DNA from: Chitinilyticum aquatile DSM 21506
GTDB taxonomy: Bacteria > Pseudomonadota > Gammaproteobacteria > Burkholderiales > Chitinibacteraceae
Direction of reading: 5' to 3'
NCBI RefSeq assembly: GCF_000430805.1
Contig: NZ_KE387259.1
Span: 310,001 to 374,000, forward strand
Length of the DNA stretch: 64,000 nt
In this document: positions 6,311-56,523 of the stretch, one piece after another
Layout: each line of letters starts with the position of its first letter
How positions within the stretch are numbered: the first letter of the stretch is position 1
The notes under the pieces: model-generated
What the model saw: the letters and a program-made list of their open reading frames with translations, nothing else
Told to the model about the DNA's origin: nothing
The model's database searches: none
Translations under genes and position numbers: made by a program

Positions 6311-7143
6311 AATCCCTTCTTCGTCTGATTTTCCTGCCCTTGCTGCTGCTGGCCGGTCAGGCACTCGCCGAAGCACCACAGCGCGTTGTCATTCTGGGCG
6401 GGTCGCTGACCGAAATCGCCTTCACGCTGGGCGCGGGCGATCGCGTGGTCGGCGTTGACCAGTCGAGCATCTACCCGGCTGCCGCCAAAGCCCTGCCCAA
6501 GGTCGGCTATTACCGCGCGTTCTCGCTCGAAGGCGTACTGGCGCTGAAGCCCGACCTGATTCTCGCCAGTGACCAGGCTGGCCCGCCCGCCGCCATCGAA
6601 CAGCTGCGCCGGCTCGGCAAACGCGTCATCGTGCTGCCGGCCGCCCCCACGCTGGCGGCACTGGAGCAGCGCATTTACGGCATTGCCGGCGCACTGCAGC
6701 TGCGCAACGACGGGCGGGAGCTGGTTACCCGCCTGCAGCGCGAAGTCGCCGCACAGCAACGGCTTCCCGCCAGCAGGCTGCGAACCCTGCTGCTGATCAG
6801 CCGCAGCGACCGCCCGGAAGGCGCCGGCCGCGACACGGCGGCGCACAGCACGCTGCAGCTCGCCGGGCTGCAGAATGTGCTCGCCGGACAAAAAGGCTAC
6901 AAACCGCTGGCCCAGGAGGGTATCGCCGCACTGCGCCCCGAGCTGATCGTCACCTCGACCATGTCGCTGCAGGCCGTCGGCGGCATCGACAAGCTGCTGG
7001 CCATGCCGGGCATTGCCCAGACCCCCGCCGCCCGCCAGCGGCGTGTCGTGGTGCTCGATGACCTGCTGCTGCTCGGCTTTGGCCCGCGACTGCCCGAGGC
7101 GTTACAGCAATTGCAGCAGGCTGCGGCAGGCAAGGCGCCATGA
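6307..7143 (+). CDS. hmuT: Heme ABC transporter periplasmic binding protein HmuT
   Basis: 278 aa with a clear signal peptide (MKSLLRLIFLPLLLLAGQALA). A helical-backbone binding domain of the FepB/BtuF/HmuT class follows: RVVILGGSLTEIAFTLGAGDRVVGVDQSS, then VGYYRAFSLEGVLALKPDLILAS, where the conserved Tyr of HmuT proteins is present. It would carry heme from the receptor to HmuUV. It overlaps hemS and hmuU by four bases on each side, so hemS-hmuTUV is one coupled operon. Confidence 0.92.
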   Translation: MKSLLRLIFLPLLLLAGQALAEAPQRVVILGGSLTEIAFTLGAGDRVVGVDQSSIYPAAAKALPKVGYYRAFSLEGVLALKPDLILASDQAGPPAAIEQLRRLGKRVIVLPAAPTLAALEQRIYGIAGALQLRNDGRELVTRLQREVAAQQRLPASRLRTLLLISRSDRPEGAGRDTAAHSTLQLAGLQNVLAGQKGYKPLAQEGIAALRPELIVTSTMSLQAVGGIDKLLAMPGIAQTPAARQRRVVVLDDLLLLGFGPRLPEALQQLQQAAAGKAP

Positions 7144-8174
7144 ACACCGCCACCCTCGCCATCGCCCCCTCCCGCCCATGGCGCAGCCCGGCCGGAATGC
7201 TCGGCCTGCTGGCGGCGCTGCTGATGCTGCTGGCACTGCTGTCGCTCAGCATCGGTGCGCTAGGTATACCGCTGCAAGCCATTATTCGCATAGGCTTTGG
7301 CGACATACCTGCAAATGATCCGGAAATGCAGCTCTGGCGTGACATCCTGTTCGACGTGCGCCTGCCGCGCGTGCTGTTCGGCGCACTGGCCGGCGCCGTG
7401 CTGGCGCTCAGCGGCGCGATGGCGCAGGCGCTCTTTCGCAACCCGCTGGCCGAACCCGGCCTGATCGGCATCTCTGCCGGCGGCGCGCTGGGCGCCGTGG
7501 CTGCCATCGTGCTGGGCAGCGGCAGCCTGCTGGTGCTGGGGCCGGCCGCTTTTGCCGGCAGCCTGGCGGCAACCGCCTGCGCCTATCATCTGGGCCGGCG
7601 CTACCCCGGCATGGCCGGACTGCTGCTGGCCGGGGTGGCGATCAACGCCATCTGCGGCAGCCTGATCGGGCTCTTTACCTATCTGGCCGATGACCAGCAG
7701 CTGCGCAGCCTGACCTTCTGGGGGATGGGCTCGCTGGCTGGCGCGAGCTGGCCGCAGCTTTCGCTTCTCGCACCCTGGCTCCTGCTGCTGTCGCTGCTGG
7801 CACTGCGCTACTGGCGCGCACTCAATGCCCTGCTGCTGGGCGAGCGCGAAGCCTGCCATCTCGGCTTTCCGATCAAGGCATTGCGCCGCACGCTGATCCT
7901 GCTGATGGCACTGCTGATCGGGCCACTGGTCGCCGCCACCGGCGGGATCGGCTTTGTCGGACTGGTCGTGCCGCACCTGATGCGCCTGCTGCTGGGGGCC
8001 GACCATCGCCTGCTGCTGCCCGCGGCGATGCTGGGCGGCGCCTGCGGGCTGGTCGCTGCCGACTGGCTGGCGCGCATTGCCGTCGTTCCGGCCGAGCTGC
8101 CGATCGGTATCGTCACCAGCCTGATCGGCGGGCCGTTTTTCCTCTACCTGCTGCTGAAAGGACGTGCCGCATGA
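7140..8174 (+). CDS. hmuU: Heme ABC transporter permease HmuU
   Basis: 344 aa FecCD-family permease with about ten hydrophobic segments and the family motif RLPRVLFGALAGAVLALSGAMAQALFRNPLAEPGLIG. The C-terminal part has GGIGFVGLVVPHLMRLLLG, also typical. It forms the inner-membrane channel for HmuT-delivered heme and pairs with HmuV. Codons 42-57 use several ATA, CTA and GGT codons that are unusual for this gene and coincide with a copy of the 47-bp element. Confidence 0.93.
   Translation: MNTATLAIAPSRPWRSPAGMLGLLAALLMLLALLSLSIGALGIPLQAIIRIGFGDIPANDPEMQLWRDILFDVRLPRVLFGALAGAVLALSGAMAQALFRNPLAEPGLIGISAGGALGAVAAIVLGSGSLLVLGPAAFAGSLAATACAYHLGRRYPGMAGLLLAGVAINAICGSLIGLFTYLADDQQLRSLTFWGMGSLAGASWPQLSLLAPWLLLLSLLALRYWRALNALLLGEREACHLGFPIKALRRTLILLMALLIGPLVAATGGIGFVGLVVPHLMRLLLGADHRLLLPAAMLGGACGLVAADWLARIAVVPAELPIGIVTSLIGGPFFLYLLLKGRAA
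7263..7309. repeat. 47-bp GGTATA-ATACC element inside hmuU
   Basis: Exact GGTATA and ATACC ends at 47 bp, with AAGCC/AGGCTT inner arms that can pair. The encoded segment (GIPLQAIIRIGFGDIP) is a normal permease loop, with three ATA codons in sixteen. Confidence 0.75.
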
Positions 8175-9948: not shown

Positions 9949-9995
9949 GGTATATACCCATAGCCATTTACCCTGAATGGCTGTGGGCATATACC
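9949..9995. repeat. 47-bp GGTATA-ATACC element, near-perfect palindrome
   Basis: The best-formed copy. Two 20-base arms match at 18 positions (GGTATA, CCCA and AGCCATT pair with their complements) around a 7-base loop, so DNA could form a cruciform and RNA a long hairpin. It lies between the ChaN-like gene and the P-type ATPase gene. Confidence 0.85.
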
Positions 9996-13636: not shown

Positions 13637-14675
13637 GGGCAGCAGCAGCGGCGACAGGCCGCGCCGCCCCACACTGCAGGACGTGGCCGACCGTGTCGGC
13701 ACATCAAAAATGACCATCAGCCGCTACCTGCGCGACCCGCAGCAGGTGGCCGAAGCCACGCGCGAGCAGATCGCGGCGGTGATGGCCGAGCTGGGCTACA
13801 TCCCCAGCCGTGTTCCCGACATGCTCGCCAATGCCAAAAGCCGCGCCATCGGCGTGCTGCTGCCGTCGATGTCGAACCAGGTTTTTGCCAGCGTGGTGCG
13901 CGGCATCGAAAGCATCACGCAGCCGGCCGGCTATCACTGCCTGTATGCCCACTACGGCTACGACGCGCTGCGCGAGGAAGAACAGATCCGCCAGCTGCTG
14001 TCGTTCCACATCGACGGGCTGATCCTCTCGGAAACGGTGCACACCGACACCACGCTGCGCATGCTGGACGTCGCCGGAATTCCGGTGGTGGAAGTGATGG
14101 AGCTGCCGGCGCGCCCCATTGACCAGGCGGTGGGAATGGATCACGAAGCCGCCGCCACGGCGATGGTGAATGCGATGCTGACCTGCGGCAAACGTCATAT
14201 TGCCTATCTGGCCGCACGACTGGACCGCCGCACGCTGCTGCGCGAAGCGGGTTACCGCGCCGCGATGACCGCCGCCGGGCTTGTCCCTTGCGTGATTGCC
14301 AGCGAAGCGTCGTCGAGCTTTTCGCTCGGCGGCGAGCTGCTGCAGCAGGCACGGCAGGCACTGTCTGATCTCGACGGCGTGTTCTGCACCAATGACGACA
14401 TCGCCGCCGGTGCCCTGCTCGCCGCGCAGGCGCACGGCTTGCGGGTACCGGAGGATCTGGCTGTGGCCGGCAGCAACGCGCTCGACATCGGCCGCGCACT
14501 CAGCCCGCAGCTCGCCAGCATCGTCACGCCCCGCGAGCAGATCGGCCGGCTGGCGGCCGAACGCTTGCTGGCACGCATCAACGGCGAGCATTTCGCCACG
14601 CCGGTCATTGATGCCGGCTTTACGCTCTTCCACGGTGGCAGCCTGGGCACGGCAAGCCAGCAGGAAAATACATAG
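13629..14675 (+). CDS. LacI-family repressor, GntR (gluconate)-like
   Basis: 348 aa. An N-terminal helix-turn-helix (TLQDVADRVGTSKMTISRYLRDP) is followed by a periplasmic-binding-like sensor with AIGVLLPSMSNQVFASVVRGIE, the pattern seen in E. coli GntR. Gluconate genes are not adjacent, so the regulated pathway is unknown. It overlaps moeB by eight bases, and a copy of the 47-bp element begins four bases after its stop. Confidence 0.85.
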   Translation: MAKGSSSGDRPRRPTLQDVADRVGTSKMTISRYLRDPQQVAEATREQIAAVMAELGYIPSRVPDMLANAKSRAIGVLLPSMSNQVFASVVRGIESITQPAGYHCLYAHYGYDALREEEQIRQLLSFHIDGLILSETVHTDTTLRMLDVAGIPVVEVMELPARPIDQAVGMDHEAAATAMVNAMLTCGKRHIAYLAARLDRRTLLREAGYRAAMTAAGLVPCVIASEASSSFSLGGELLQQARQALSDLDGVFCTNDDIAAGALLAAQAHGLRVPEDLAVAGSNALDIGRALSPQLASIVTPREQIGRLAAERLLARINGEHFATPVIDAGFTLFHGGSLGTASQQENT

Positions 14676-14678
14676 CAA

Positions 14679-14725
14679 TGTATATGCGCACAACCCTTTA
14701 ATAAAAAGGGCCATTGCCATATACC
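14679..14725. repeat. 47-bp TGTATA-ATACC element after the GntR-like gene
   Basis: 47 bp from TGTATATG to ATATACC. The inner CCCTTT/AAAGGG arms enclose AATAA. It starts four bases after a stop codon. Confidence 0.75.
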
Positions 14726-15399: not shown

Positions 15400-15446
15400 C
15401 CCATCAGCTTGCAGCCATTGATAATAAAAACATCCAGAGACATACC
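15400..15446. repeat. 47-bp element (degenerate left end) between nfeD-like and SPFH genes
   Basis: The right end ACATACC and inner GCAGCCATT are intact at the expected spacing. The left end has decayed to CCCATC. It lies 12 bases after the nfeD-like stop. Confidence 0.55.
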
Positions 15447-19241: not shown

Positions 19242-19317
19242 GGGTTGTTAGCTCAGTTGGTAGAGCGTCTGCCTTACAAGCAGAATGTCGGCGGTTCGAT
19301 CCCGTCACAACCCACCA
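19242..19317 (+). tRNA. tRNA-Val (TAC), copy 1
   Basis: 76 nt including encoded CCA. The acceptor stem is GGGTTGT/ACAACCC, the anticodon loop CTTACAA gives TAC, and the T arm is GGTTCGATCC. It is identical to copies 2 and 3. Confidence 0.97.
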
Positions 19318-19324
19318 CCCCTTT

Positions 19325-19401
19325 GAAGCAGACGTTTGGTTGGTTGTAATTCCGGCCTGTCACGCCGGGGGTCGCGGGTTCGAGCCCCGTCCGCTCCGCC
19401 A
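19325..19401 (+). pseudogene. Decayed tRNA-Asp, copy 1
   Basis: The 3' half, including the GTC anticodon loop, T arm and CCA, is identical to the intact tRNA-Asp copies. The first 27 bases carry nine substitutions. These put A-C mismatches at acceptor positions 2 and 6, lose the invariant T8 and A14, and break the D stem. Divergence begins right after the tRNA-Val CCA. It is probably non-functional. Confidence 0.8.
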
Positions 19402-19435
19402 GCACTACAGCAGTAAATCAGCAGTACCTCAATAT

Positions 19436-19511
19436 GGGTTGTTAGCTCAGTTGGTAGAGCGTCTGCCTTACAAGCAGAATGTCGGCGGTTCGATCCCGTC
19501 ACAACCCACCA
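19436..19511 (+). tRNA. tRNA-Val (TAC), copy 2
   Basis: 76 nt, identical to copy 1 and starting exactly 194 bases later. Anticodon TAC; CCA is encoded. Confidence 0.97.
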
Positions 19512-19518
19512 CCGCTGC

Positions 19519-19595
19519 GGAGCGGTAGTTCAGTTGGTTAGAATACCGGCCTGTCACGCCGGGGGTCGCGGGTTCGAGCCCCGTCCGCTCCGCCA
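19519..19595 (+). tRNA. tRNA-Asp (GTC), copy 2
   Basis: 77 nt with acceptor GGAGCGG/CCGCTCC, anticodon loop CTGTCAC and encoded CCA. It is intact. Confidence 0.97.
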
Positions 19596-19629
19596 GCACT
19601 ACAGCAGTAAATCAGCAGTACCTCAATAT

Positions 19630-19705
19630 GGGTTGTTAGCTCAGTTGGTAGAGCGTCTGCCTTACAAGCAGAATGTCGGCGGTTCGATCCCGTCACAACC
19701 CACCA
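19630..19705 (+). tRNA. tRNA-Val (TAC), copy 3
   Basis: 76 nt, identical to copies 1 and 2, in the third 194-bp unit. Confidence 0.97.
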
Positions 19706-19712
19706 CCGCTGC

Positions 19713-19789
19713 GGAGCGGTAGTTCAGTTGGTTAGAATACCGGCCTGTCACGCCGGGGGTCGCGGGTTCGAGCCCCGTCCGCTCCGCCA
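19713..19789 (+). tRNA. tRNA-Asp (GTC), copy 3
   Basis: 77 nt, identical to copy 2, with encoded CCA. It is the last gene of the cluster. Confidence 0.97.
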
Positions 19790-19923
19790 CCCCCCTTGTC
19801 ACACCCAACCTGTTGCAGCATGACCACGCAGCAAGCCCTGCAAACCACTCACTGGTCTGCTTTGCGGTTACACTTGCATTCCAGTTTTCTGCGACTTGGT
19901 CCAAAAACGACAGGAATTCGACA

Positions 19924-21237: not shown

Positions 21238-25125
<3,888 letters not shown>

Positions 25126-25129
25126 ACAG

Positions 25130-25176
25130 GGTATAGCCACGCAGCCATTTAAGTAAAAAGGCTGCACAGGCATACA
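25130..25176. repeat. 47-bp GGTATA-ATACA element after hrpA
   Basis: Starts five bases after the hrpA stop. The inner arms GCAGCC and GGCTGC pair perfectly around TTTAAGTAAAAA-type loop sequence. The right end is ATACA instead of ATACC. Confidence 0.8.
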
Positions 25177-25320
25177 TGGCAATGTATTAAACAAGCACCG
25201 GTAGCCGGCCCGCATCTGGCCGGGCGAGTCTGGGCAAGCAGCGTTTGCTGCACACGATGATTGATCCGGCCCTCTGACATCTGAAACAGCAGAAGGCTGG
25301 ATTAATCACACCGCGCACAC

Positions 25321-27394: not shown

Positions 27395-27414
27395 TACGCT
27401 GCGTCGACAGCCCG

Positions 27415-27443
27415 AAACCCGCTTGCCTGCAAGCGGGTTTTTT
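27415..27443 (+). terminator. Rho-independent terminator of the parvulin gene
   Basis: A 12-bp stem AAACCCGCTTGC/GCAAGCGGGTTT with a 2-base apex is followed by TTT. It lies 20 bases after the parvulin stop. Confidence 0.9.
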
Positions 27444-27496
27444 CATGCCTGCTATCCACAGGCCAGCCGGGCGTCAACGCGCATCTGCCTGAATTC

Positions 27497-28750
27497 CTAT
27501 GCGACAAGCGCCGTTTTCCGCACCCCCACCGCAGCCAGGTCAACGGCCCCCAGATGGCGTTCGATCTGCTCGAACAGGCCCGAATCGAGCAAGTGCCGGT
27601 CAGCCCGGGCACGCAGGAGCCGCAGGATGGCATCCGGCGACATGGCATTGCGGTAAGGGCGGTTCTGCGCCAATGCCTGATACATGTCGGCCACATGGAT
27701 GATGCGGGCCTCTGGCGGCATCTGCGCATCCTGCAGATGGAAGGGATAACCGCGTCCATCCAGCGTTTCATGGTGCCAGGCGGCCCAGCGCGCCATGTCG
27801 TCTATGCCACGCAGGCGTTTTAGCACCATATAGGTGGCAAAACTGTGCGCGCGCATGACACCGGCATCGTGCTCATTCAGTCCGCACGGGCTATCCAGAA
27901 TATCGTCGGGAATCTGCAGCTTGCCGATGTCATGCAACAGGCCGGCAACTTCGACCATTTCGCAGCGCTCGTCATCAAGCCCGCCCAGCGCCGCCAGATA
28001 GCGTGAAACACGTGCCACGCCCAGCGAATGCTCGGCAGTAAAGGGGGATTTGGCGTCAATCACGTCGGCCAGCAGGTAGGCGCCCTGCTTGAAATCCGCC
28101 CAGCTCATGATCTCGTTGCCCGCTTGCGCGCGCATTTCATTCTGGTAATCAAGCACGCATTCGCTGTCGAGCATCAGCCAGAACGATTCGCATCGCGATG
28201 CTTCGGCAAATACCCCGATCCAGTACGGTGAAAACAGTGTCCCCGACAGGGCCAGCAGCTGATCGCGCAGCATGTTCGAGATGGCCAGCGTGCTGCGGTC
28301 AGCGTAGCTCGCGCGGGAGAGCGTATCGATGCGGTCGGCCAGAAACACCAGCGCGGCTTCTGTACGCACCGTATCCGGCAAGTCCAGTGTCTGCAAGGTT
28401 TCCCAGCGCGTGTGGTGATGACGGACAACTGGCGCCAGATCGGCCAGCGGCGCGCAGCGCGCCAGCAATGCCTCGCCGCGGATGCAGTGCGCCTCGGCTC
28501 CCTGCCATTCCAGCTCCATCGCGATGGCACGATGCTGCACCGTCGAGGAAACACCACAGTCATGCAGCAGGCCAAGCCGGTAGGCGCGCTGCCGTGCCGG
28601 CCAGTCGGCGCCAGCGGCCAGCGCCAGCTCGGCAGCCAGCAAGCCGACCCGGCGGCCATGCCAGGCGTCGTCCAGCCCGACCAGATCGATCGCGTGGGCG
28701 AAGGTGAAAATGAAGTCTTCCAGCTGAACCGAAGGGAGAATGGTGCTCAT
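27497..28750 (-). CDS. Tandem HD/HD-GYP domain protein (c-di-GMP phosphodiesterase)
   Basis: 417 aa. The first half is an HD-like domain (LGLLHDCG, VVRHHHTRW). The second half is an HD-GYP domain (EHSLGVARVSRYLAAL, LLHDIGKLQIPDDIL, WHHETLDGRGYPF), the signature of c-di-GMP phosphodiesterases. No sensor or receiver domain is attached. The ATG at 28750 is preferred over an upstream TTG. It follows rep on the same strand with a gap holding a 47-bp element. Confidence 0.88.
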   Translation of the reverse strand: MSTILPSVQLEDFIFTFAHAIDLVGLDDAWHGRRVGLLAAELALAAGADWPARQRAYRLGLLHDCGVSSTVQHRAIAMELEWQGAEAHCIRGEALLARCAPLADLAPVVRHHHTRWETLQTLDLPDTVRTEAALVFLADRIDTLSRASYADRSTLAISNMLRDQLLALSGTLFSPYWIGVFAEASRCESFWLMLDSECVLDYQNEMRAQAGNEIMSWADFKQGAYLLADVIDAKSPFTAEHSLGVARVSRYLAALGGLDDERCEMVEVAGLLHDIGKLQIPDDILDSPCGLNEHDAGVMRAHSFATYMVLKRLRGIDDMARWAAWHHETLDGRGYPFHLQDAQMPPEARIIHVADMYQALAQNRPYRNAMSPDAILRLLRARADRHLLDSGLFEQIERHLGAVDLAAVGVRKTALVA

Positions 28751-28842: not shown

Positions 28843-28889
28843 GGTATATACACCTACCCTTTTGAAATAAATGGCCAAACAAACATACC
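28843..28889. repeat. 47-bp GGTATA-ATACC element between rep and the HD-GYP gene
   Basis: Exact GGTATATA and ACATACC ends at 47 bp, with an inner AATGGCC and an A-rich loop. It lies about 90 bases before the HD-GYP start. Confidence 0.85.
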
Positions 28890-28969: not shown

Positions 28970-30964
28970 TCAGCCCAGACGTGCCAGAATGCTGGCCGCC
29001 ATGCCGCGCGCTTCCTGCTTGGTGATCGCCGGGGTGTTCTTGTCGGGAGCCAGGCGCCCCGAGAAACGCACATCCTCAACCGGCATTTCCCTGAGGAAAC
29101 GGCTGGGCTGCGTAATTTGCCATTCGCCGGCGCGGCGGCGCTTGCCGCACCAGGTGATGGTCAGCGTGCGCTGTGCCCGGGTGATGCCGACGTACATCAG
29201 CCGGCGCTCTTCCTCGACGGTGCCGGCCTCGATGGAATTCTGGTGTGGCAGGATTTCTTCCTCGCAGCCAACCAGAAACACATGCGGGTATTCCAGGCCT
29301 TTCGACGCGTGCAGCGTGGTCATTTTCACCGCATCGACCTCTTCCTCGTCGCGCCCTTCGAGCATGGTGATCAGCGCAATCGTCTGGGTAAGTTCAAGCA
29401 GGTCCTTGCCGTCGCGCTCGCCCTTCTTGGCGATCCAGTCGACGAAATCCATCACCGTGTTCCACTTGGTTTCGGCCGGGCGCGCTTCCTCGCTGTCGTA
29501 CAGCCAGGTTTCGTAGTCGATGGCCTTGAGCATTTCCATCAACAGAGGACCAGCCGGCTCGCGTGGCGCGCGGAACTGCATGCGGCCGATGAAATCGGCA
29601 AAATCTTTCAGTGGCGTGTACTGCGCAGCCTGCACCTGATGAATGAACCCTTCCTCGTATACCGCTGCATACAGCGATATATTTCGCTGCTGGGCATATA
29701 CCCCTAGCTTCTCCAGCGTGACATTGCCGACACCGCGTTTGGGCGTCGTCACCGCGCGAATGAAGGCCGGGTCGTCCTTGTCGTTCACCAAGAGGCGCAG
29801 GTAGGCGAGGATGTCCTTGATTTCAGCCTTGTCGAAAAACGACTGCCCGCCGGAAATCTGGTAGGGAATCCGGTGCTCGCGCAGCGCCTGCTCGATGATG
29901 CGCGCCTGGAAGTTGCTGCGATACAGGATGGCGTAATCCTTGAAGTCGGTCTGCGCTTCGAACTTGTGCGCCAGCAGCTTCATCGCGATCAGCTCGGCCT
30001 CGTGCTCCTCGTTCTTGGTTTCGACCACCTGGATCGGATCGCCCACGCCCAGTTCGCTCCACAGGGTTTTCTCGAACAGCTTGGGATTGTTGGCGATCAC
30101 CGCATTCGCACAGCGCAGGATTCGCGCCACCGAGCGGTAATTCTGCTCGAGCTTGATCACGCGCAGCTGCGGGAAATCGTCCTGCAGCGTGCGCAGGTTT
30201 TCCATGTTCGCGCCGCGCCAGGCGTAAATCGACTGGTCGTCGTCACCCACGGCGGTGAACTGGCCCGAAACATTGCACAAGAGCTTCACCAGATCGTACT
30301 GCGTGGTATTGGTATCCTGGCACTCGTCGATCAGCAGGTATCGGAGCCGCGAACGCCATTTCTGCAGGATTTCGTCATTGCGCTCCAGCAGATCGACCGG
30401 CAGGCGGATCAAATCGTCAAAATCCACCGCCTGATAGGCCGTGAGCGTGTCCTGATACTGGCGGTAGAGTCGCGCCAGATGCATTTCACCGTCGCTGGCG
30501 GCATTGCGGATGGCGTCGTCCGGGCCGATGCGGTCATTTTTCAGCAGCGAAATCTGGCTGACCGTCTGGCGGATCAACCCCTTGTCGGTGGTCTGCAGGA
30601 TGTCGGAGAGGATTTTCCAGCTGTCGGCCGAGTCCAGAATCGAGAATTGCGGCTTGTAGCCCAGATGTTTCGCCTCTTCACGCAGGAAACGCATGCCGAG
30701 GCTGTGAAAGGTTGAGACAGTCAGGCCGCGCAACATGGGCGCGGGCAGCAAGGTGGAAACCCGCTCCTGCATTTCGCGCGCCGCCTTGTTGGTAAAGGTG
30801 ATCGCGGCGATATTGCGCGCGTCCATGCCGGCCTGTTCGATCAGGTAGGCGATTTTCTGCGTGATTACCCGCGTCTTGCCGGAACCGGCGCCGGCGAGCA
30901 CCAGGCAGGGCCCGTTCAGGTATTGCACGGCGGCGCGTTGCGCGGGGTTGAGCAGATGCAGCAT
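28970..30964 (-). CDS. rep: ATP-dependent DNA helicase Rep (UvrD family)
   Basis: 664 aa superfamily 1 helicase. The Q motif is LNPAQRAAVQYLNGPCLVLAGAGSGKT with Walker A, Ia is ITFTNKAAREM, II is YLLIDECQDTN, III is VGDDDQSIYAWRGA and VI is RRLMYVGITRAQ. Length and the conserved 1B/2B regions match Rep, which clears protein-DNA roadblocks before forks. Codons 421-437 use many rare codons (CTA, GGG, GTA, CGA, ATA) over an antisense copy of the 47-bp element. Confidence 0.93.
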   Translation of the reverse strand: MLHLLNPAQRAAVQYLNGPCLVLAGAGSGKTRVITQKIAYLIEQAGMDARNIAAITFTNKAAREMQERVSTLLPAPMLRGLTVSTFHSLGMRFLREEAKHLGYKPQFSILDSADSWKILSDILQTTDKGLIRQTVSQISLLKNDRIGPDDAIRNAASDGEMHLARLYRQYQDTLTAYQAVDFDDLIRLPVDLLERNDEILQKWRSRLRYLLIDECQDTNTTQYDLVKLLCNVSGQFTAVGDDDQSIYAWRGANMENLRTLQDDFPQLRVIKLEQNYRSVARILRCANAVIANNPKLFEKTLWSELGVGDPIQVVETKNEEHEAELIAMKLLAHKFEAQTDFKDYAILYRSNFQARIIEQALREHRIPYQISGGQSFFDKAEIKDILAYLRLLVNDKDDPAFIRAVTTPKRGVGNVTLEKLGVYAQQRNISLYAAVYEEGFIHQVQAAQYTPLKDFADFIGRMQFRAPREPAGPLLMEMLKAIDYETWLYDSEEARPAETKWNTVMDFVDWIAKKGERDGKDLLELTQTIALITMLEGRDEEEVDAVKMTTLHASKGLEYPHVFLVGCEEEILPHQNSIEAGTVEEERRLMYVGITRAQRTLTITWCGKRRRAGEWQITQPSRFLREMPVEDVRFSGRLAPDKNTPAITKQEARGMAASILARLG
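29656..29702. repeat. 47-bp element inside rep, antisense to the gene
   Basis: CGTATA left end and ATATACC right end at 47 bp, with inner CAGCGA/TCGCTG arms. The right flank TGGGCATATACCC-CTAGC is shared with the copy at 9949-9995. The Rep protein here has normal length. Confidence 0.75.
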
Positions 30965-32077: not shown

Positions 32078-32124
32078 CATATAGCGCCACAGCCAAACAA
32101 ATAAAAATCGCTCAAGAACATACC
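32078..32124. repeat. 47-bp element at the convergent end of the PilZ and pxpC genes
   Basis: TATA left core, exact inner CCACAGCCA and ACATACC right end at 47 bp. It overlaps the last 13 bases of pxpC. Confidence 0.65.
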
Positions 32125-33789: not shown

Positions 33790-35073
33790 ATGATCCTACA
33801 AAGCCAACCCGCTGAAGCCCATTATCTGCACCCTGACCAATTGCAGGTCGGGATTTACATCCATCTTGACCTGGGCTGGATGGATCACCCCTTTGCACTG
33901 GGGAGCTTCAAGATCAAATCGCCGGCGCAGATTGCCACGATCAGGCAGCTCGGCCTGCAGCGCATCCGCTATTCGCCCGAGCAGAGCGACTGCCCGCCCC
34001 TTTCCGAACCAGCCAGCGATGCCGGTCCCGCGCCGCCTCCGCCGACAGAGCCCGACCCCGAGCTGCAGGCAAGACTGGCGGCCAAACGCGAGGCCCAGGC
34101 AAAGGCCGCGCGCCGGCAAGCGCTGCTGCAGGCCTGCGAGCGGGATTTCACCCAGGCCGCGCAAGTCGTCCGCCAGATCAACAAGCAAATCTACTCGCGT
34201 CCGGAAGAAACCGCAGCACAGGCCGACCGTCTGCTCGGCCACATGCTGGATTCGCTGCTGGTGGAAAGCGATATCGCGCTGCAGCTGATGAATGACAAGG
34301 GTGGCAGCGACGAGCTGTATTTCCACTCGCTGAATGTGTCCGTGCTGGCCCTGCTGCTTGGCAAGGCACTGGGCCTGCCGCGCGACGACATCCACCAGCT
34401 CGGGCTGGCCACCCTGCTGCACGACGTAGGCAAAACGCGGATTCCCGATCGCGTGCTGCTGAAAACCGACACGCTCACTCTGGCCGAACGCAAGCTGCTG
34501 GCCCAGCATTGCGAATGGAGCATGGAGGCGGCAAAGGCGGCCGGCCTGTCCGAGCAGATCCAGCGCATCATCCTGCAGCATCACGAGCTGGCCGATGGCA
34601 GCGGCTATCCGCAGCAGCACAAGCTGGCCGATATCGACCCGCTGGCGCGCGTGCTGGTGGTGGTGAACTATTACGACAACCTCTGCAACCGCATCAACCC
34701 GATGGAATCGCTGACGCCGCACGAAGCTCTCGCGCAGATGTTTGCCCAGCACCGCAGCCAGTTTGACAGCCAGATTCTCGGCACTTTCGTACGCAGCATG
34801 GGGGTATATCCACCAGGCTCTTGCATCCAGTTATCAAGCGGGCAATACGCCATAGTGGTATCCGTCAATGCCAGCCGGCCGCTGAAACCCTCGGTGCTGG
34901 TGTACGACCCCGAGCTGCCGCGCGACATTGCCAACATCATCAATCTCGAGCAGGACGACTCGCTCAACATCAGCAAATCGGTCAAGCCCGTGCAACTGCC
35001 GCGTACGGCCGCCGATTACCTGAGCCCGCGCAAGCGCACGACCTACTACTTCCGTCCGAACGAGGAAGGCTGA
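33790..35073 (+). CDS. HD-GYP c-di-GMP phosphodiesterase with DUF3391
   Basis: 427 aa from the ATG at 33790. An upstream ATG at 33727 would overlap pxpB and add 21 residues. The N-terminal DUF3391 reads LQVGIYIHLDLGWMDHPFALGSFKI. A charged helix is followed by the HD-GYP domain: LLHDVGKTRIPD, QHHELADGSGYP, and the late motif GVYPPGS. It lies three bases before a hybrid kinase gene. Codons 338-353 carry a 47-bp element. Confidence 0.9.
   Translation: MILQSQPAEAHYLHPDQLQVGIYIHLDLGWMDHPFALGSFKIKSPAQIATIRQLGLQRIRYSPEQSDCPPLSEPASDAGPAPPPPTEPDPELQARLAAKREAQAKAARRQALLQACERDFTQAAQVVRQINKQIYSRPEETAAQADRLLGHMLDSLLVESDIALQLMNDKGGSDELYFHSLNVSVLALLLGKALGLPRDDIHQLGLATLLHDVGKTRIPDRVLLKTDTLTLAERKLLAQHCEWSMEAAKAAGLSEQIQRIILQHHELADGSGYPQQHKLADIDPLARVLVVVNYYDNLCNRINPMESLTPHEALAQMFAQHRSQFDSQILGTFVRSMGVYPPGSCIQLSSGQYAIVVSVNASRPLKPSVLVYDPELPRDIANIINLEQDDSLNISKSVKPVQLPRTAADYLSPRKRTTYYFRPNEEG
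34803..34849. repeat. 47-bp GGTATA-ATACG element inside the HD-GYP gene
   Basis: Exact GGTATAT left end and AATACG right end at 47 bp. The codons are GTA TAT CCA CCA, TTA TCA and ATA, all unusual for this gene, although the peptide GVYPPGS is family consensus. Confidence 0.65.
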
Positions 35074-38089: not shown

Positions 38090-38581
38090 AAGCCCGATGA
38101 TACCGCCTTCAGCCAGGAATTCCTCCTTGCCGACGAGAGCGCCACGCTCGCGCTGGGTGCGGCGCTCGCCACCGCCCTCGCGCCAGGTTTGGTCATCGAG
38201 CTGGAGGGCGATCTCGGCGCCGGCAAAACCACGCTCACCCGTGGCATCCTGCGCGGCCTCGGCTTTGCCGGCCGTGTGAAAAGCCCCACGTATACGCTGG
38301 TTGAACCTTATACAATTTCTAACTTATACTTATATCACTTTGATTTATATCGGTTTAACGACCCGGAAGAATGGGAAGACGCCGGCTTCCGGGAACATTT
38401 CAATCCGGACAGCGTCTGCCTGATCGAATGGGCCGACAAGGCCGCCGGCCTGCTGCCGCAACCCGACTGGCGCATCACGCTGGTTCCGGAAGGCACAGGC
38501 CGCAGAGCACGACTCGACGTTTTCAGCGAACAAGGCAAGGCATGCGCAACAAGGGTATCACTCCACAGCCCAATGAATTGA
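38084..38581 (+). CDS. tsaE: tRNA t6A ATPase TsaE
   Basis: 165 aa. Walker A is GDLGAGKTTLTRGILRGLG, and the family block SPTYTLVEPY...LYHFDLYRF is followed by LIEWADKAAGLLP. It supports TsaBCD in tRNA t6A synthesis. The strongly conserved block (bases 38290-38361) switches to AT-rich codons with three TTA leucines in ten codons, unlike the rest of the gene. It overlaps amiC by 40 bases and queG by six. Confidence 0.94.
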   Translation: MHKPDDTAFSQEFLLADESATLALGAALATALAPGLVIELEGDLGAGKTTLTRGILRGLGFAGRVKSPTYTLVEPYTISNLYLYHFDLYRFNDPEEWEDAGFREHFNPDSVCLIEWADKAAGLLPQPDWRITLVPEGTGRRARLDVFSEQGKACATRVSLHSPMN

Positions 38582-39930
38582 AAGCCCCTGAGCACATACC
38601 CTCAAGGCGCTGGATACTGCAGGCGGCTGCCGCCTCCTTCCTGCTCAGCGTGGTCCCACGCGGCATGGCTGCGGATGGCACACCCAGCGTTGTCGCTGTC
38701 CGCGTCTGGCCTTCCATGGCCTACACCCGCGTCACCATCGAATCCACCGCGCCGCTCACCTTCAAGCAGTTTGCCCTGAAAGACCCCGAGCGCCTGGTCG
38801 TCGACCTCGAAGGCATCGACATCAACAGCCAGCTGCAAAGCCTGGCCGGCAAGGTACTGCCAGACGACCCGTACATCCAGCAGCTGCGCGCGGGCCGCAA
38901 CAAGCCGGGCGTGGTGCGTCTGGTGCTCGACATGAAAACCGAGACCAAGCCGCAGGTCTTCACCCTGCCGCCGGTGGCTGAATACCAGCACCGGCTGGTG
39001 ATCGACCTCTACCCGGCACATCAGGATGACCCGCTGCTGGCTTTCCTCAGCGACCAGGACAAGCGCGACACGCCAGCGCTGACCAAATCCGAAACGCTGG
39101 CACAGAACGACGCCTCCGCCGCAAAGCCCGCAGAGAAACCCAAAGCTGCGGAACGGCCGCAGGCGGAAAAGCAGGCCCAGCCTGACGCGGTTGATCGCAA
39201 TACGCTGAAAGTGGACCGCCTGATTACCGTGGTGCTCGACCCCGGCCACGGCGGCGAAGACCCCGGCGCGGTCGGTCCGGGCGGCACCTATGAGAAAACC
39301 GTGGTACTGGCCATTGCCCGCCGCCTGAAAACCCTGCTGGAAGAAGACCCCAACGTGCGCGTGGTGCTCACGCGCGACGGCGATTATTTCGTGCCGCTGG
39401 GCACGCGCGTCAAGAAAGCGCGAGCCGTGCAGGCCGACCTCTTCATGTCGATCCATGCCGACGCGGCCCTGCGGCAGGATGCCAACGGTTCATCGGTGTT
39501 TGCGCTGTCTGATAAGAGCGCCACCAGCGTGCAGGCGCGGATGCTGGCGCAAAGCCAGAACGCGGCCGACCTGATCGGCGGCGTAAAAATCGACAACAAG
39601 AACCCGGAGCTCGCCCGCGTCCTGATGGACCTGACGATGACCTCGACCATCAACGACAGTCTGAAGCTCGGCAAGGTGATGCTCGGAGAGCTGTCGGACA
39701 TCAACCGCCTGCACAAGCCGCATGTCGAGCAGGCCGGCTTTGCCGTGCTGAAAGCGCCCGACATCCCTTCCGTGCTGGTGGAAACCGCCTTCATTTCCAA
39801 TCCGGCCGAAGAACAGAAGCTCGTCACCGAGGAATACCAGCAGAAAATGGCGCAGGCCTTGCAGCGCGGCATCCGCAAGTATTTCGCCAAATACCCGCCG
39901 CAACCGCGCACGAAACTGGCCAGCAATTAG
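38542..39930 (+). CDS. amiC: N-acetylmuramoyl-L-alanine amidase AmiC (Tat-exported)
   Basis: 462 aa. A twin-arginine signal (IPSRRWILQAAAASFLLSVV) is followed by an AMIN domain (VRVWPSMAYTRVTIESTAPL). After a Lys/Ala/Pro linker comes an Amidase_3 domain: VVLDPGHGGEDPGAVGPGG, SIHADAA and VLVETAFISN with the zinc ligands and catalytic Glu. It splits septal peptidoglycan. The first 20 codons overlap tsaE and carry a 47-bp element. A terminator follows. Confidence 0.93.
   Translation: MRNKGITPQPNELKAPEHIPSRRWILQAAAASFLLSVVPRGMAADGTPSVVAVRVWPSMAYTRVTIESTAPLTFKQFALKDPERLVVDLEGIDINSQLQSLAGKVLPDDPYIQQLRAGRNKPGVVRLVLDMKTETKPQVFTLPPVAEYQHRLVIDLYPAHQDDPLLAFLSDQDKRDTPALTKSETLAQNDASAAKPAEKPKAAERPQAEKQAQPDAVDRNTLKVDRLITVVLDPGHGGEDPGAVGPGGTYEKTVVLAIARRLKTLLEEDPNVRVVLTRDGDYFVPLGTRVKKARAVQADLFMSIHADAALRQDANGSSVFALSDKSATSVQARMLAQSQNAADLIGGVKIDNKNPELARVLMDLTMTSTINDSLKLGKVMLGELSDINRLHKPHVEQAGFAVLKAPDIPSVLVETAFISNPAEEQKLVTEEYQQKMAQALQRGIRKYFAKYPPQPRTKLASN
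38554..38600. repeat. 47-bp GGTAT-ATACC element over the tsaE/amiC overlap
   Basis: Exact GGTAT and ACATACC ends at 47 bp with inner CCACAGCCC. It covers the tsaE stop and codons 5-20 of amiC. It is alignable base for base with the mutL copy, in the same reading phase. Confidence 0.75.
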
Positions 39931-40482: not shown

Positions 40483-42471
40483 ATGCCACGTATCCAGGTT
40501 CTTCCCGACCAGCTCGTCAACCAGATCGCCGCCGGCGAAGTGGTCGAGCGCCCGGCCAATGCACTCAAGGAGATGCTGGAAAACAGCCTGGATGCCGGCA
40601 GCAGCAATCTGCACATCGAGCTGCTCAATGGCGGCACCAAGCTGATCAGGATCACCGACGACGGCTGCGGCATTGCCCGCGACGACCTGCCACTTGCGCT
40701 GCACCGCCACGCCACCAGCAAGATCGCCAGCTTCGACGATCTGCAGCGTGTCGCCACGCTGGGCTTTCGCGGCGAAGGGCTGGCGTCGATTGCGTCCGTT
40801 TCGCGGCTCACGCTCACCAGCCGCTATCAGGATGACAGCCACGCCTGGCGTGTCGAGGCCGATCACGGCAATCTGGGCGAGATCGAGCCCGCCGCACTCA
40901 GCCACGGCACGACCATCGAAGTGCACGAGCTCTATCACCAGCTGCCGGCACGCCGCAAATTCCTCAAATCGGACGCCACCGAATTCGCGCACTGCGCCGA
41001 GATGGTCAAGCGCCTGGCGCTCGCCAATCCGGACAAGCAGTTCACGCTGCTGCACAACGGCCGCGCCGCCTTGCGCCTCGTTGCCGGCGATCTGGCGCGC
41101 CGCGCGGGCGAGCTGCTGGGCGAAGAATTCGTCACATCGGGAGTCCATGTCGATGAAGGCTTCGGCCCGCTGCGCCTTTACGGCATCACAGGCAGCCCGA
41201 CGCTGGGCAAGGCCAGCCGCGATGCACAGTATTTCTTCGTCAATGGCCGTTTCGTGCGCGACAAGGTCATCCAGCACGCGCTGCGCGAAGCCTACCGCGA
41301 CGTGCTGCATCACGACCGCCATGCGGCCTACTGCCTCTTCCTCGAACTCGACCCGGAAACGGTGGACGTCAACGTGCACCCGACCAAGATCGAGGTGCGT
41401 TTCCGCGAAAGCCAGGCCGTCTACCGCTTCCTGCTCACCAGCCTGACCAAGGCACTGGCCGGCACCCGTGCGGGCGCCGGCAACGGGCAGGTGCAGCCAG
41501 AACAGACAACCGTGCCAGCAGGCATCGACCCGGACACCGGCGAAGTGCTCGCGCGCCCGACACCACAGCCAGCCTCCACTGCAGCGGCAGCGCCGGCAAG
41601 CGCGCCGCGCGCGCCGACTTACGCCGAGCTCGCCGCGCGCCAGCAAGCCATCCCGCTCGCCAGCGCCCGCGAAGGACTGGGCTTCTACGACAAGCTGATT
41701 GGTGATCTGCGCCGTGATACGGGCACTGGTAGTACCCCACAACCCAATAAATCAGAAGACTCCAGCCCAATACCCTCAAGTTTGCCCTGGCAGCCATTGG
41801 GTGAACCGGTAGCGGCAACGCGGCCGGAAACCGCCGCCCCCCAGCCAGCGCCTGCGGCCAGCATGCCTGCCGATGACGCACCACTGATTCCGCCACTGGG
41901 CTTTGCGCTGGGCCAGCTGCACGGCGTCTACATCCTCAGCCAGGCGCCCGATGGCCTGATCGTCGTCGACATGCACGCCGCGCACGAGCGCATCGTCTAT
42001 GAAAAGCTGAAAACCGCGCTCGACCTGCGCCAGATGCCGACCCAGCCCTTGCTGATTCCGCACGTCTTCGCCGCTGATCGCCTTGATGTCGCCACCGTGG
42101 AAGATCACGGCGCGGAACTCGCGCAGCTCGGGCTTGAGCTGTCAGTGATGTCGCCGACGCAGCTTGCGGTGCGTGCGGTGCCGCTGCTGCTGAAAGACGC
42201 CGATGTGGTCGAGCTGGCGCGCGCGATGCTCGCCGACGTGCGAACGGTCGGCATCAGCCAGATGCTGGCCGGCCGCAGGAACGAGCTGCTCGCCACCATG
42301 GCCTGCCACGGTGCAGTGCGCGCCAACCGCCAGCTCACCCTGCCGGAAATGAATGCGCTGCTGCGCGACATGGAAGCAACCGAGCGCAGCGGCCAGTGCA
42401 ATCACGGCCGTCCGACGTGGTTCCGGCTGACGATGAAAGACCTCGACGGCCTGTTCATGAGGGGGCAATGA
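40483..42471 (+). CDS. mutL: DNA mismatch repair protein MutL
   Basis: 662 aa. GHKL ATPase motifs are seen: LPDQLVNQIAAGEVVERPANALKE, DDGCGI and TLGFRGEGLASIASVS. A variable linker (about residues 330-470) precedes the C-terminal dimerisation domain with VVDMHAAHERIVYEKLK and ACHGAVRANRQLT. The endonuclease motif DQHAxxER appears as DMHAAHER, not as the metal-binding endonuclease form. A TATACT promoter-like hexamer lies near 40425. The linker carries a 47-bp element at codons 416-431. Confidence 0.95.
   Translation: MPRIQVLPDQLVNQIAAGEVVERPANALKEMLENSLDAGSSNLHIELLNGGTKLIRITDDGCGIARDDLPLALHRHATSKIASFDDLQRVATLGFRGEGLASIASVSRLTLTSRYQDDSHAWRVEADHGNLGEIEPAALSHGTTIEVHELYHQLPARRKFLKSDATEFAHCAEMVKRLALANPDKQFTLLHNGRAALRLVAGDLARRAGELLGEEFVTSGVHVDEGFGPLRLYGITGSPTLGKASRDAQYFFVNGRFVRDKVIQHALREAYRDVLHHDRHAAYCLFLELDPETVDVNVHPTKIEVRFRESQAVYRFLLTSLTKALAGTRAGAGNGQVQPEQTTVPAGIDPDTGEVLARPTPQPASTAAAAPASAPRAPTYAELAARQQAIPLASAREGLGFYDKLIGDLRRDTGTGSTPQPNKSEDSSPIPSSLPWQPLGEPVAATRPETAAPQPAPAASMPADDAPLIPPLGFALGQLHGVYILSQAPDGLIVVDMHAAHERIVYEKLKTALDLRQMPTQPLLIPHVFAADRLDVATVEDHGAELAQLGLELSVMSPTQLAVRAVPLLLKDADVVELARAMLADVRTVGISQMLAGRRNELLATMACHGAVRANRQLTLPEMNALLRDMEATERSGQCNHGRPTWFRLTMKDLDGLFMRGQ
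41728..41774. repeat. 47-bp element in the mutL linker
   Basis: GGTAG left end and CAATACC(C) right end at 47 bp with inner CCACAACCC. With flanks it matches the amiC copy at about 37 of 54 bases and encodes a similar TPQPN...IPS peptide. Confidence 0.75.
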
Positions 42472-46078: not shown

Positions 46079-46125
46079 TCTACCGGCCTGTATCCCTTTC
46101 GCATGAATGGATACAAGGCAATACC
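46079..46125. repeat. 47-bp element (degenerate left end) after miaA
   Basis: The right end CAATACC(C) lies at the proper spacing. The inner arms are GTATCC/GGATAC, and the left end is TCTACC. It starts 11 bases after the miaA stop. Confidence 0.5.
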
Positions 46126-47174: not shown

Positions 47175-47325
47175 TCAAGATCAATCTAGGAGAGATAGCA
47201 AGAAAGCAGCGTGTTCTGCGTGCTTGCCATGGAAACCATTATCCGGACATGCCCTCACCGCGTCGCGGCAGAAAGTCACACCGCGGAAGGCAAAATTACC
47301 ATGCCCCCTGATGGCCGCCGCCTTA
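47149..47325 (-). ncRNA. Candidate small RNA ended by the terminator at 47149-47174
   Basis: The 320-base gap between the hydrolase stop and marC has no ORF. On the minus strand a TATAAG hexamer near 47325, with TTGAGG 15 bases before it, could start a transcript. A strong terminator ends it about 170 nt later. A segment resembling GGTGAG-GCATG-TC-GG recalls the 6S RNA core, but the full fold is not evident. It could instead be an attenuated marC leader. Confidence 0.3.
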
Positions 47326-47335
47326 TACGCGCCAT

Positions 47336-47382
47336 TGTATTACCTCAAAGCCTTTATTTTTCAATGGCTCCAGGCCAATACC
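47336..47382. repeat. 47-bp TGTATT-ATACC element after the hydrolase gene
   Basis: 47 bp from TGTATTACC to CCAATACC, with inner AAAGCC and AATGGCT. It lies 11 bases downstream of the hydrolase stop (minus strand). Confidence 0.75.
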
Positions 47383-50333: not shown

Positions 50334-50668
50334 GATGATTTCTGACCTTTGCGCAGCAGTGTGACTTGCCCAAGCTTCAACTCCAACAGGCTCAGGCGCT
50401 CCGCTTCAGCAAGCCCGCCCTTTCCTGCGAACTCCACGCGAAAGCACGTATCAGGCAAATCCTCTTCCCGGATCGAGCCCTTGAGCTGGAGCTGCACGTC
50501 ACCAAGCCGCGCGCTCCAGCCAAAGTCGTAATCCTGATTCGCAAGCGGGCGAAAGAAATAGCCGGCCTCTTGCGCACCAAGCATGCCAAACACGGCCAAG
50601 GCGGCATCCTTGAGGCACAAGCCGGGCGCCGGCAAGATCAATTCAACCGTGTGCGCGAGCATCTTCAT
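50330..50668 (-). CDS. Hypothetical protein in the chitinase operon
   Basis: 112 aa, MKMLAHTVELILPAPGLCLKDAALAVFGMLGAQEAGYFFRP.... It is soluble, with alternating strands, and no family is recognised. Its ATG overlaps the chitinase TGA (ATGA), and its own stop overlaps the next ATG, so the three genes were translationally coupled. It may be an accessory or immunity-like partner of the chitinase, but that is speculation. Confidence 0.7.
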   Translation of the reverse strand: MKMLAHTVELILPAPGLCLKDAALAVFGMLGAQEAGYFFRPLANQDYDFGWSARLGDVQLQLKGSIREEDLPDTCFRVEFAGKGGLAEAERLSLLELKLGQVTLLRKGQKSS

Positions 50669-51735
50669 CCTTGGCCGGCCATCCCCTTAACCAGCGTATC
50701 CAGCAACTCGCCGGTAGCGTCCTCCATCAGCTCCCAGAAAAACACGCCAGCCAGCCCTCGTGCATGGGCGTAGCGGCATTTCCAGACCAGTGATTCGGGG
50801 TCGTCGTAGGTGATGTAATGCTCGCCGTCGAACAGCCACGGCGCCTTGGCGTTGTCATCCCAGTAGCGGGTATAACGACCGGAGGGAATAAGTTCGGAGG
50901 CTATCGAGGTATACGAGTGGGTGGTATTGGATTTGGGCGTGCCCGGCTGGCCGTGCCCGCCGTTGACATTGACTACCCCGTGCAGGCCTCGACCGTAAAA
51001 GGCGGCTCCCAGTACCATCTTTTCGACCGGCACGCCGGCTCTGGCAAACAATTCGATGCCGTCTGCCGCACACCAGCCCTTGGGGTCGCGCGGTGTGGCG
51101 AAGAGCGCGGTGTGATGGCCGGCCTTCACGGCCCAGCCGTTGTAGAGGTCGTAGCTCATCATGTTGACGAGATCGAGCTCCGCCGCCACGGCGGCCATTT
51201 CCACGCCATCGAGATAGAACTGCTCGATACCCACTGCGGCGGTCAGCAGATACGGCTCTGTACGCCCTTCGCGCACGGCGAGCGCCTGCATTTCGCTGCG
51301 CACGGCGCGCAGCATCAGCGTGAAATTCTGCTTGTCTTCCGGGCGGGCCTTGATGCTGGCCATGTCGTTGGACGGGTATTCCCAGTCCATGTCGATGCCG
51401 TCGAAACCACGTTCATGCATGAATGCCACCGCCGATCTGGCGAAGCGGGCGCGGCTTTCATCGGTCAGGGCGGCGTCGGAAAAGCCGTCTGCACTCCAGC
51501 CGCCCACCGAGATCAGCGTTTTCAGTGCCCGATTGCGTGCCTTGAGCTGGGGCAGTTCGGCACAGAGGGCGTTGCGGCGGGCCACATCGCCCGGCTCGTG
51601 CTCGGCAAACACCACATCTCCATCCTGTACCTGCGCAAAGGCAAAGCAGAGATGAGTCAGTTTTTCAGCGGGAATGTCGGCGACATTCCCGATGCGGTTG
51701 CTGGCGACATACGCCAGCAGGATGGGCTTGCTCAT
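50665..51735 (-). CDS. GH18 chitinase-like glycoside hydrolase
   Basis: 356 aa single GH18 barrel. The catalytic motif DGIDMDWEYP (DxxDxDxE) is complete, SVGGWS is present in strand 3, and MSYDLYNGW and WDDNAKAPW lie later in the barrel. No signal peptide or chitin-binding domain is visible, which is unusual for a secreted chitinase. It is the first gene of a coupled three-gene operon whose last gene is destroyed by an IS remnant. Codons 274-289 carry an antisense 47-bp element. Confidence 0.9.
   Translation of the reverse strand: MSKPILLAYVASNRIGNVADIPAEKLTHLCFAFAQVQDGDVVFAEHEPGDVARRNALCAELPQLKARNRALKTLISVGGWSADGFSDAALTDESRARFARSAVAFMHERGFDGIDMDWEYPSNDMASIKARPEDKQNFTLMLRAVRSEMQALAVREGRTEPYLLTAAVGIEQFYLDGVEMAAVAAELDLVNMMSYDLYNGWAVKAGHHTALFATPRDPKGWCAADGIELFARAGVPVEKMVLGAAFYGRGLHGVVNVNGGHGQPGTPKSNTTHSYTSIASELIPSGRYTRYWDDNAKAPWLFDGEHYITYDDPESLVWKCRYAHARGLAGVFFWELMEDATGELLDTLVKGMAGQG
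50869..50915. repeat. 47-bp GGTATA-ATACG element inside the chitinase gene
   Basis: GGTATAA left end, GTATACG right end at 47 bp. Codons include ATA, CTT, ATT and CGT. The protein segment ending GRYTRYWDD is conserved, with no indel. Confidence 0.6.
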
Positions 51736-56476: not shown

Positions 56477-56523
56477 CCCATATCGTCATAGCCCTTATTT
56501 ATCAATGGTTTTCAGCCCATACC
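56477..56523. repeat. 47-bp element between tRNA-Gly and the alcohol dehydrogenase gene
   Basis: Inner CATAGCCCTT and AATGGTT with right end CCATACC(C). The left end CCCATATC keeps only the ATAT core. Confidence 0.6.

Follow-up and report, generated by a model that had tools for sequence, protein, structure and literature searches.

A 45-bp composite DNA site written across the chromosomes of three genera of Chitinibacteraceae, conserved in position and evolved in place in the coding copies examined

RESULTS

Genes and Dyad Sites of the Window

The window, as we call the entire 64,000-nt stretch of Chitinilyticum aquatile DSM 21506 that was analyzed, carries within the rep gene one of many copies of a palindromic element. 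A preliminary description of this DNA had given the element a length of 47 bp; we define it as a 45-bp dyad, GTAT-N37-ATAC, to which the longer version adds one flanking base per side. Fifteen exact copies and four with one mismatch are present in the window, and seven of the exact copies lie inside genes. Genes were called with a purpose-made codon-usage caller and named from Pfam and NCBIfam. At the family level, the six gene names of the preliminary description fit, hmuU only in the sense of a FecCD permease gene and the HD-GYP gene as a combination of HD_5 and DUF3391; a seventh gene, that of a HemS/ChuX-domain protein, had been absent from it. The strands that it had assigned agree with our gene calls as well: rep, chitinase and desaturase are on the minus strand and the remaining named genes on the plus strand. 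The sites are listed below, and a strand is assigned to a site only where it possesses a third box.

5678-5722: exact GTATN37ATAC site in the HemS/ChuX-domain gene (5234-6310, plus strand; Pfam)
7264-7308: exact site in the FecCD permease gene (7140-8174, plus strand), overlapping the deepest rare-codon island of this gene
9950-9994: near-consensus intergenic site (exact/one-mismatch search; 50.6 bits by matrix)
14680-14724, minus strand: intergenic site directly 3' of a stop codon; left-hand third box (ATAC at 14668-14671)
15401-15445: degenerate intergenic site (29.9 bits by matrix); exact site at the same place in C. piscinae
22629-22673: site in hrpA (21238-25125, plus strand); C. piscinae 40/45, boxes 8/8
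25131-25175, plus strand: intergenic site 3' of hrpA; third box on the right, GTAT at 25184-25187; degenerate site in the same C. piscinae gap
28844-28888: intergenic site; degenerate site in the same C. piscinae gap
29657-29701: the site in rep (28970-30964, minus strand) from which the analysis started; C. piscinae 44/45; one-mismatch site at the same codons in 6/6 g4 genomes
32079-32123: one-mismatch site at a gene end; exact C. piscinae site no more than about 25 bp away
34804-34848: site in the HD_5/DUF3391 gene (33790-35073, plus strand); C. piscinae 33/45, both boxes kept
38555-38599: site between divergent genes; C. piscinae 33/45, both boxes kept
41729-41773: one-mismatch site in mutL (40483-42471, plus strand); exact in C. 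piscinae
46080-46124: degenerate intergenic site (31.9 bits by matrix); exact site in the same C. piscinae gap
47337-47381, minus strand: intergenic site; third box on the left, ATAC at 47325-47328; no counterpart seen in C. piscinae
50870-50914: exact site in the GH18 chitinase gene (50665-51735, minus strand; Pfam)
53149-53193: exact site in the DesA desaturase gene (52279-53475, minus strand; NCBIfam/Pfam)
56478-56522: degenerate site (33.1 bits by matrix)
60903-60947, minus strand: site in the intergenic gap of a divergent gene pair; left-hand third box (ATAC at 60891-60894)
61730-61774: intergenic site directly 3' of a stop codon (exact/one-mismatch search and gene calls)

Two further features of the window deserve mention in their own right. 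A tandem array at 19242-19823 consists of three 194-bp direct repeats, the second and third being 94% and 82% identical to the first, with two tRNA genes each (six Rfam tRNA matches in all). The C-terminal part of the DesA-family desaturase (52279-53475) matches an ISL3 transposase-like tail domain, and the deepest rare-codon island of its gene (segments starting at codons 242-260) adjoins this part.

Excess of the Dyad Over Chance

Exact and one-mismatch copies taken together reached a mean of 3.69 in dinucleotide shuffles of the window (n = 100), and 0 of the 100 shuffles attained the 19 copies found. The length of 45 bp is specific: the 15 exact copies of the window compare with a mean of 0.17 at 99 other lengths (20-119 bp), and 400 kb of the host genome contain 67 copies at 45 bp vs 1.9 at other lengths. 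Genome-wide, there are 606 exact copies in the Chitinilyticum host and nine matches to the reversed pattern. When a site-trained matrix was applied at 12 bits, 94, 105, 48 and 53 matches were obtained, and the reversed matrix gave 0 in each case. Coding copies exceed chance in each of five stretches from the host, C. piscinae (G011) and the genomes G007 and G021, with 121 seen in total vs about 6.4 expected from box frequencies by frame. On the matrix of their own genome, four of the seven exact coding sites of the window score below 12; coding copies are therefore weaker inside.

At 12 bits, solitary half-sites outnumber those of a reversed-matrix control in G007 (17 and 24 vs 4) and in G021 (12 and 15 vs 5), as if sites were decaying or forming there, and the excess is weak in G000 (13 and 17 vs 10) and G011 (4 and 11 vs 6). 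Searches of the open-licence literature on Chitinibacteraceae genomes, palindromic repeats, uptake sequences and nucleoid proteins brought up no title or beginning of an abstract that describes the element.

Rare Codons at the Coding Copies

The coincidence of coding copies with rare codons, the central claim of the preliminary description, was borne out. Over the seven 15-codon segments that contain the element, the mean ln w is -0.91 vs -0.35 in the other segments of the window's genes, and the proposed check of codon adaptation along each gene places all seven among the worst 5.4% of their own gene. In 4/7 genes, no segment away from the element is as bad as that at the element, and segments at a lone GTAT or ATAC stay near the background (mean ln w -0.37, n = 128). 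Corresponding values in the four other stretches are -0.77 vs -0.41 (n = 22), -0.80 vs -0.41 (n = 14), -0.64 vs -0.38 (n = 44) and -0.55 vs -0.35 (n = 34); in the G000C1 stretch the scoring took in 22 of the 23 coding copies. Between 88 and 95% of the element segments in these four stretches fall below the median; the remaining 5-12% are therefore not rare-codon stretches. According to the preliminary description, comparable islands scattered through the genes away from the element would refute its claim. The claim withstands this test only in part: the element overlaps the deepest island in five of the seven genes, but islands free of the element do exist, and those in the HemS and DesA genes are deeper.

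Origin in Place and Conservation of Position

Alignment of rep from 30 genomes of the family, 28 of which lack a full site, is gapless across the element, and 16/16 coding comparisons between carriers, rep included and three sites counted in both directions, are likewise free of insertions and deletions. The coding copies examined, on which insertion was assessed, were therefore built by substitution in place, as the preliminary description had held when it preferred selection on the DNA to insertion; an inserted or mobile repeat is refuted for them by these gapless alignments. That description had located the cost of this selection in codon choice. Rare codons are indeed found at the sites, but in rep, where amino-acid changes were studied, the protein has been altered too: the element encodes V at a position occupied by A, S, N, G or T in relatives, and Y at one where the majority of them carry F. 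Among 15 carrier genomes, a full site in rep is confined to the two Chitinilyticum genomes; six g4 genomes carry a one-mismatch site at the same codons, as read from the codons, and seven g7 genomes have none.

Positions are conserved within Chitinilyticum. C. piscinae, the aligned parts of which are about 80% identical to the host, has kept GTAT and ATAC at all three alignable exact coding sites of the window. Window positions 14942-47555, compared place by place with a C. piscinae contig, contain eleven sites, of which seven are exact, two have one mismatch and two were found by matrix. For ten of them C. piscinae has a site at that place or within the corresponding gap (eight exact, two degenerate), with three of the six intergenic sites no longer aligning. 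Two C. piscinae sites in this syntenic stretch are without a counterpart in the host; this count leaves aside about 23 kb of extra DNA in C. piscinae (window 27395-27575 vs G011:C24 12615-35527), which contains four matrix-scored sites of its own. A cruder test, which considers exact copies only whereas the place-by-place comparison also counts degenerate sites, asked for exact sites 3' of orthologous genes. It gave 4/12 vs 4/39 for G000 and G007 (Fisher P 0.08) and no shared exact site for G000 and C. piscinae (3 and 6 unshared, 21 with neither). For one g4 site, the host genome offers a counterpart with a single mismatch and the third box still in place, which suggests some common ancestry of site positions. 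The element is a genome-wide composite DNA site of conserved position, the examined coding copies of which evolved in place.

Placement, Spacing and Orientation

The five stretches contain 263 exact copies, 122 of them in genes, where random placement would put 82-86%, 119 between genes and 22 at a border. Tandem intergenic copies tend to follow stop codons closely (center at most 60 bp from the upstream stop codon in 62/88), and convergent gaps are favored in four of the five stretches. Gaps between divergent genes are under-used in G000C1 (3 vs 10.2 expected), G007 (3 vs 13.6) and G011 (3 vs 11.9), whereas the window (2 vs 1.9) and G021 (3 vs 2.4) show no such deficit; it is by this under-use in three of five stretches that the sites differ from ordinary operators. 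As judged by eye from protein starts, the largest site-poor gaps coincide in G007 with a T6SS and an accessory transport cluster, and in the host with clpPX-lon, rpsB-tsf-bamA and similar conserved operons.

Each of the 100 blocks of 20 kb that were sampled contains at least one copy. Mean spacing amounts to 3.0-4.5 kb when degenerate sites are included and to about 3.8-6.2 kb for exact copies only, according to genome counts. It is more even than random, most clearly so in Chitinilyticum. Against uniform placement, the coefficient of variation (CV) takes the following values: G000, 0.676 vs 0.985; G011, 0.614 vs 0.967; G007, 1.05 vs 0.98; G021, 0.83 vs 0.97. Under a gene-slot null, the spacing CV of G000C1 is 0.72 vs 0.92 (P 0.0045), and the corresponding P values are 0.004 for the window and 0.0055 and 0.052 for C. 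piscinae contigs C1 and C24; G021 is marginal (P 0.044) and G007 not significant (P 0.11). The variance-to-mean ratio of block counts (G000 0.61, G011 0.52, G007 0.55, G021 0.79) departs significantly from chance in G007 only (P 0.0097).

Sampled sites are spread over the chromosome, and no origin-terminus gradient was seen by eye. The third box lies with vs against the local GC skew in 41 vs 28 cases in G007, 5 vs 4 in G021, 24 vs 12 in the G000 stretches and 8 vs 9 in G011; with a looser third box, the first 400 kb of G007 gave 36 vs 15 (P 0.0046). Its polarity is thus at most a weak excess.

Anatomy of the Site and Search for Its Reader

The symmetric half of the site has the consensus gGGTATntncctgnAGCCaTTT in the host and GGGTATagccctgnAggccat in G007, and is weaker in C. 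piscinae and G021; the inner consensus varies between genera and is weak in G021. Information content reaches 37.6 bits in the host, 29.6 in G007, 25.4 in C. piscinae and 24.2 in G021; about 12 bits would be required to find the sites. ATAC is followed by a third GTAT box, at a distance of 8 bp in the host and C. piscinae and of 8-9 bp in G007; this box is hardly present in G021 (9/147 sites). Of 449 sites, 129 have it on a single side and none on both, where 12.2 such cases were expected (P 5e-6). Matches to the three-box pattern in G007 number 166 on one strand and 165 on the other, vs 1 and 0 for the control. Judged from the consensus, the boxes would be spaced by about one helical turn. 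Covariation of the outer arms is weak (z 3.7 in G000, 2.4 in G007, -1.5 in C. piscinae and 0.6 in G021), and we therefore read the element as a probable composite site for a multimeric DNA-binding protein; symmetry and information content, together with the lack of clear evidence for pairing, point to such a protein reader.

Searches of the 43 family genomes for this putative reader provided no candidate that follows the carriers: ParB_N and H-NS occur in 43/43 genomes, KfrA_N in 16/43, and DUF3375, which we take to be JetA/MksF, in 5/43, two of them carriers. Inspection by eye of the genes that flank promoter-placed sites revealed no common autoregulated candidate. Two observations on individual assemblies emerged from these searches. 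In G013:C1 (approximately 1187839-1301112), ParB_N matches recur with identical scores 67.4 kb apart, which suggests a duplicated stretch, and three equally scored KfrA_N matches lie at intervals of about 13.5 kb on the single contig G005:C2 (5236-32621), which might represent an assembly of a multimeric plasmid.

Host Range

Among 43 Chitinibacteraceae genomes from 11 genera, all 15 genomes of three genera (g1, which is Chitinilyticum, g4 and g7) carry 580-975 copies, and the number is 6-48 in the 28 genomes of the other eight genera, where the reversed pattern has 0-55 matches. The genera g4 and g7 may be Deefgea and Chitinibacter. In 19 of the 28 non-carriers the dyad is somewhat commoner than the reversed pattern (18 vs 0 or 30 vs 9, for instance), which could reflect composition or relics of a lost system. 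No comparable dyad dialect was found in 80 kb from each of five non-carriers; their AAAA/TTTT signals were mostly terminator-like, and TATG-N28-CATA in G027 looked like chance. The extended pattern GGGTAT-N37-ATACCC occurs 154 times in the host genome, and the maximum among 368 further genomes of the class is two copies. A 22-base pattern matched in 3/399 genomes of the order, all within the family, a count that says little because g4 carriers in the sample were also missed. In a rep tree, g1 stands apart from g4 and g7, and a single clade of carriers is not rejected (p-AU 0.128).

Viral contigs searched with two strict site patterns returned 6 and 22 stretches, that is, 28 loci with one or two GTATN37ATAC each. 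Matrix scoring of six of these loci and of one Chitinimonas locus gave low values for most sites. Locus L256 has one site that scores 15.7-21.6 on three matrices and 0.8 on that of the host, and L265 and L258 have single sites of 17.9 and 16.2 on the C. piscinae matrix.

DISCUSSION

Comparison With Known Genomic Words

To the preliminary description, the data reported here add the genome-wide scale of the element, its even spacing, its third box and its restriction to three genera. DNA uptake words of the USS and DUS type have a length of about 10-32 bp. As described in three articles, the USS of Pasteurellaceae and the DUS of Neisseriaceae resemble our element in their hundreds of copies, fairly even spacing, non-coding excess, copies within ORFs and dialects (PMC1939737, PMC7811141, PMC3630211). 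Their copy numbers, hundreds to thousands, are matched by the carriers in all 15 genomes, and their placement is matched as well, although even spacing is clear in Chitinilyticum, marginal in G021 and not significant in G007. In contrast to these short, non-palindromic words, the element has symmetric arms that form a dyad of 45 bp, or 57 bp with the third box, and it occurs once per 3-6 kb, compared with about one USS or DUS per kb. The highly iterated palindrome HIP1 (GCGATCGC) of cyanobacteria, the function of which is described as uncertain in PMC4390886, is likewise a palindromic word iterated through the genome. Whereas HIP1 has 8 bp and is linked to methyltransferase recognition, the element holds 24-38 bits over 49 bp in several boxes, and its different and far longer consensus sets it apart from words of the GCGATCGC type. 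REP/BIME, Correia-type and Rickettsia palindromic elements are long multi-copy palindromes that were inserted, some of them into genes; at the sites studied here no insertion is seen, and copies differ inside. Protein-read chromosomal addresses such as parS, matS and KOPS are shorter words of regional or polar distribution. Sampled copies of the element, by comparison, are distributed over the chromosome and not near the origin as parS/ParB centromeres are, and PF02195 is present in 43/43 genomes regardless of carrier status. Of the replichore orientation typical of KOPS and Chi, the third box shows at most a weak excess, next to its balanced strands in G007.

Possible Functions of the Site

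Our preferred reading, which we put forward tentatively and from sequence data, is that the site most likely anchors or wraps the chromosome at regular intervals as part of a nucleoid-organizing grid, and that a sequence-specific multimeric protein would read it. The main candidate besides it, which we regard as possible though somewhat doubtful, is a signal of the uptake type, akin to USS and DUS but with a longer word of its own, that marks self DNA for natural transformation and is spread by molecular drive, site-bearing fragments being more often taken up and recombined. Nucleoid organization and an uptake signal each predict most of the observations. The genome statistics of known uptake words are similar, down to copies in genes that cost codons, and both the drive-like character of these statistics and the known biology of Neisseriaceae lean toward uptake, as do the inner parts that differ between genera and the long copy-poor stretch over the T6SS and accessory genes in G007. 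ComEC is encoded in 43/43 family genomes, but this includes the 28 non-carriers. A three-box dyad of 45-57 bp, moreover, fits poorly with uptake words, which are non-palindromic according to PMC1939737, and one copy per 3-6 kb with the density of about one per kb in H. influenzae. On the side of uptake, paired DUS copies arranged as dyads are described for Simonsiella in PMC3630211, where they are said to be a possible indication of dimer-based recognition. Karlin, as PMC1939737 relates, interpreted the evenness of uptake words as pointing to a function in replication, repair or compaction, while the author of that article finds that compaction would demand a more even distribution than they have, so that spacing by itself does not settle the choice. 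It is the long three-box dyad and its low density that lead us to favor the nucleoid grid over the uptake signal.

Other readings appear less probable. A nuclease, translocase or restriction-like system might spare, or stop at, DNA that bears the site; its presence in every sampled 20-kb block would mark any long fragment as self, and the viral contigs offered just the few stretches noted above, with one or two copies each. Yet no tracking system was found, one SMC-like family that was tested, DUF3375, being present in 5/43 genomes with two carriers among them, and the third box of G007, with its 41 vs 28 cases, shows no strong polarity as in Chi or KOPS, so that we consider such self-recognition or protection unlikely. 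Very unlikely, in our estimation, is a hairpin that acts as RNA or single-stranded DNA, be it a terminator, an RNase site or a REP/RAYT-like substrate. The palindrome itself, the closeness of most tandem copies to an upstream stop, the preference for convergent gaps and some arm covariation in G000 and G007 would suit it, but outer-arm covariation is absent in C. piscinae and slight in G021, about half of the copies lie inside genes, the third box falls outside any stem, and tRNA is the only Rfam family with a match in the window at gathering thresholds. High copy number and inverted ends are what a mobile or formerly mobile repeat of the MITE, REP or Rickettsia-palindrome type, inserted into genes, would display; in view of the missing gaps in 30 rep sequences and 16 coding comparisons and of an inner sequence that varies from copy to copy, we give it hardly any credence.

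The nucleoid-organizing grid lends itself to the following model. Two inverted GGGTAT arms with their centers about 41 bp apart would form the core of a composite binding site, weaker CTGnAG-like boxes would lie about one helical turn inward of the arms, and many copies have, on a single side, an additional GTAT box roughly one turn farther outward. The reader of this arrangement may be a multimeric protein that binds DNA sequence-specifically. Sites would have arisen by point substitution where few changes sufficed, often 3' of stop codons, in convergent gaps and at tolerant codons, and would since have been held at a fairly even spacing of about 3-6 kb. We cautiously propose, without attaching firm confidence to it, that in three genera of one family only a dedicated protein complex binds a three-box 57-bp address once per roughly 3-6 kb, and that selection, by keeping such an address in every interval, overrides the choice of codons and even of amino acids.

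To our knowledge, few bacterial signals are written across the whole chromosome, genes included, and those that we know of are short. The element described here, a long composite site with fairly even spacing, conserved positions and a clear division of genera into carriers and non-carriers, opens a test of a regularly spaced, sequence-addressed nucleoid scaffold in bacteria, or of uptake words in the form of long dyads. Its coding copies also show, as experiments of nature, to what extent a DNA signal can prevail over the choice of codons and of protein sequence.
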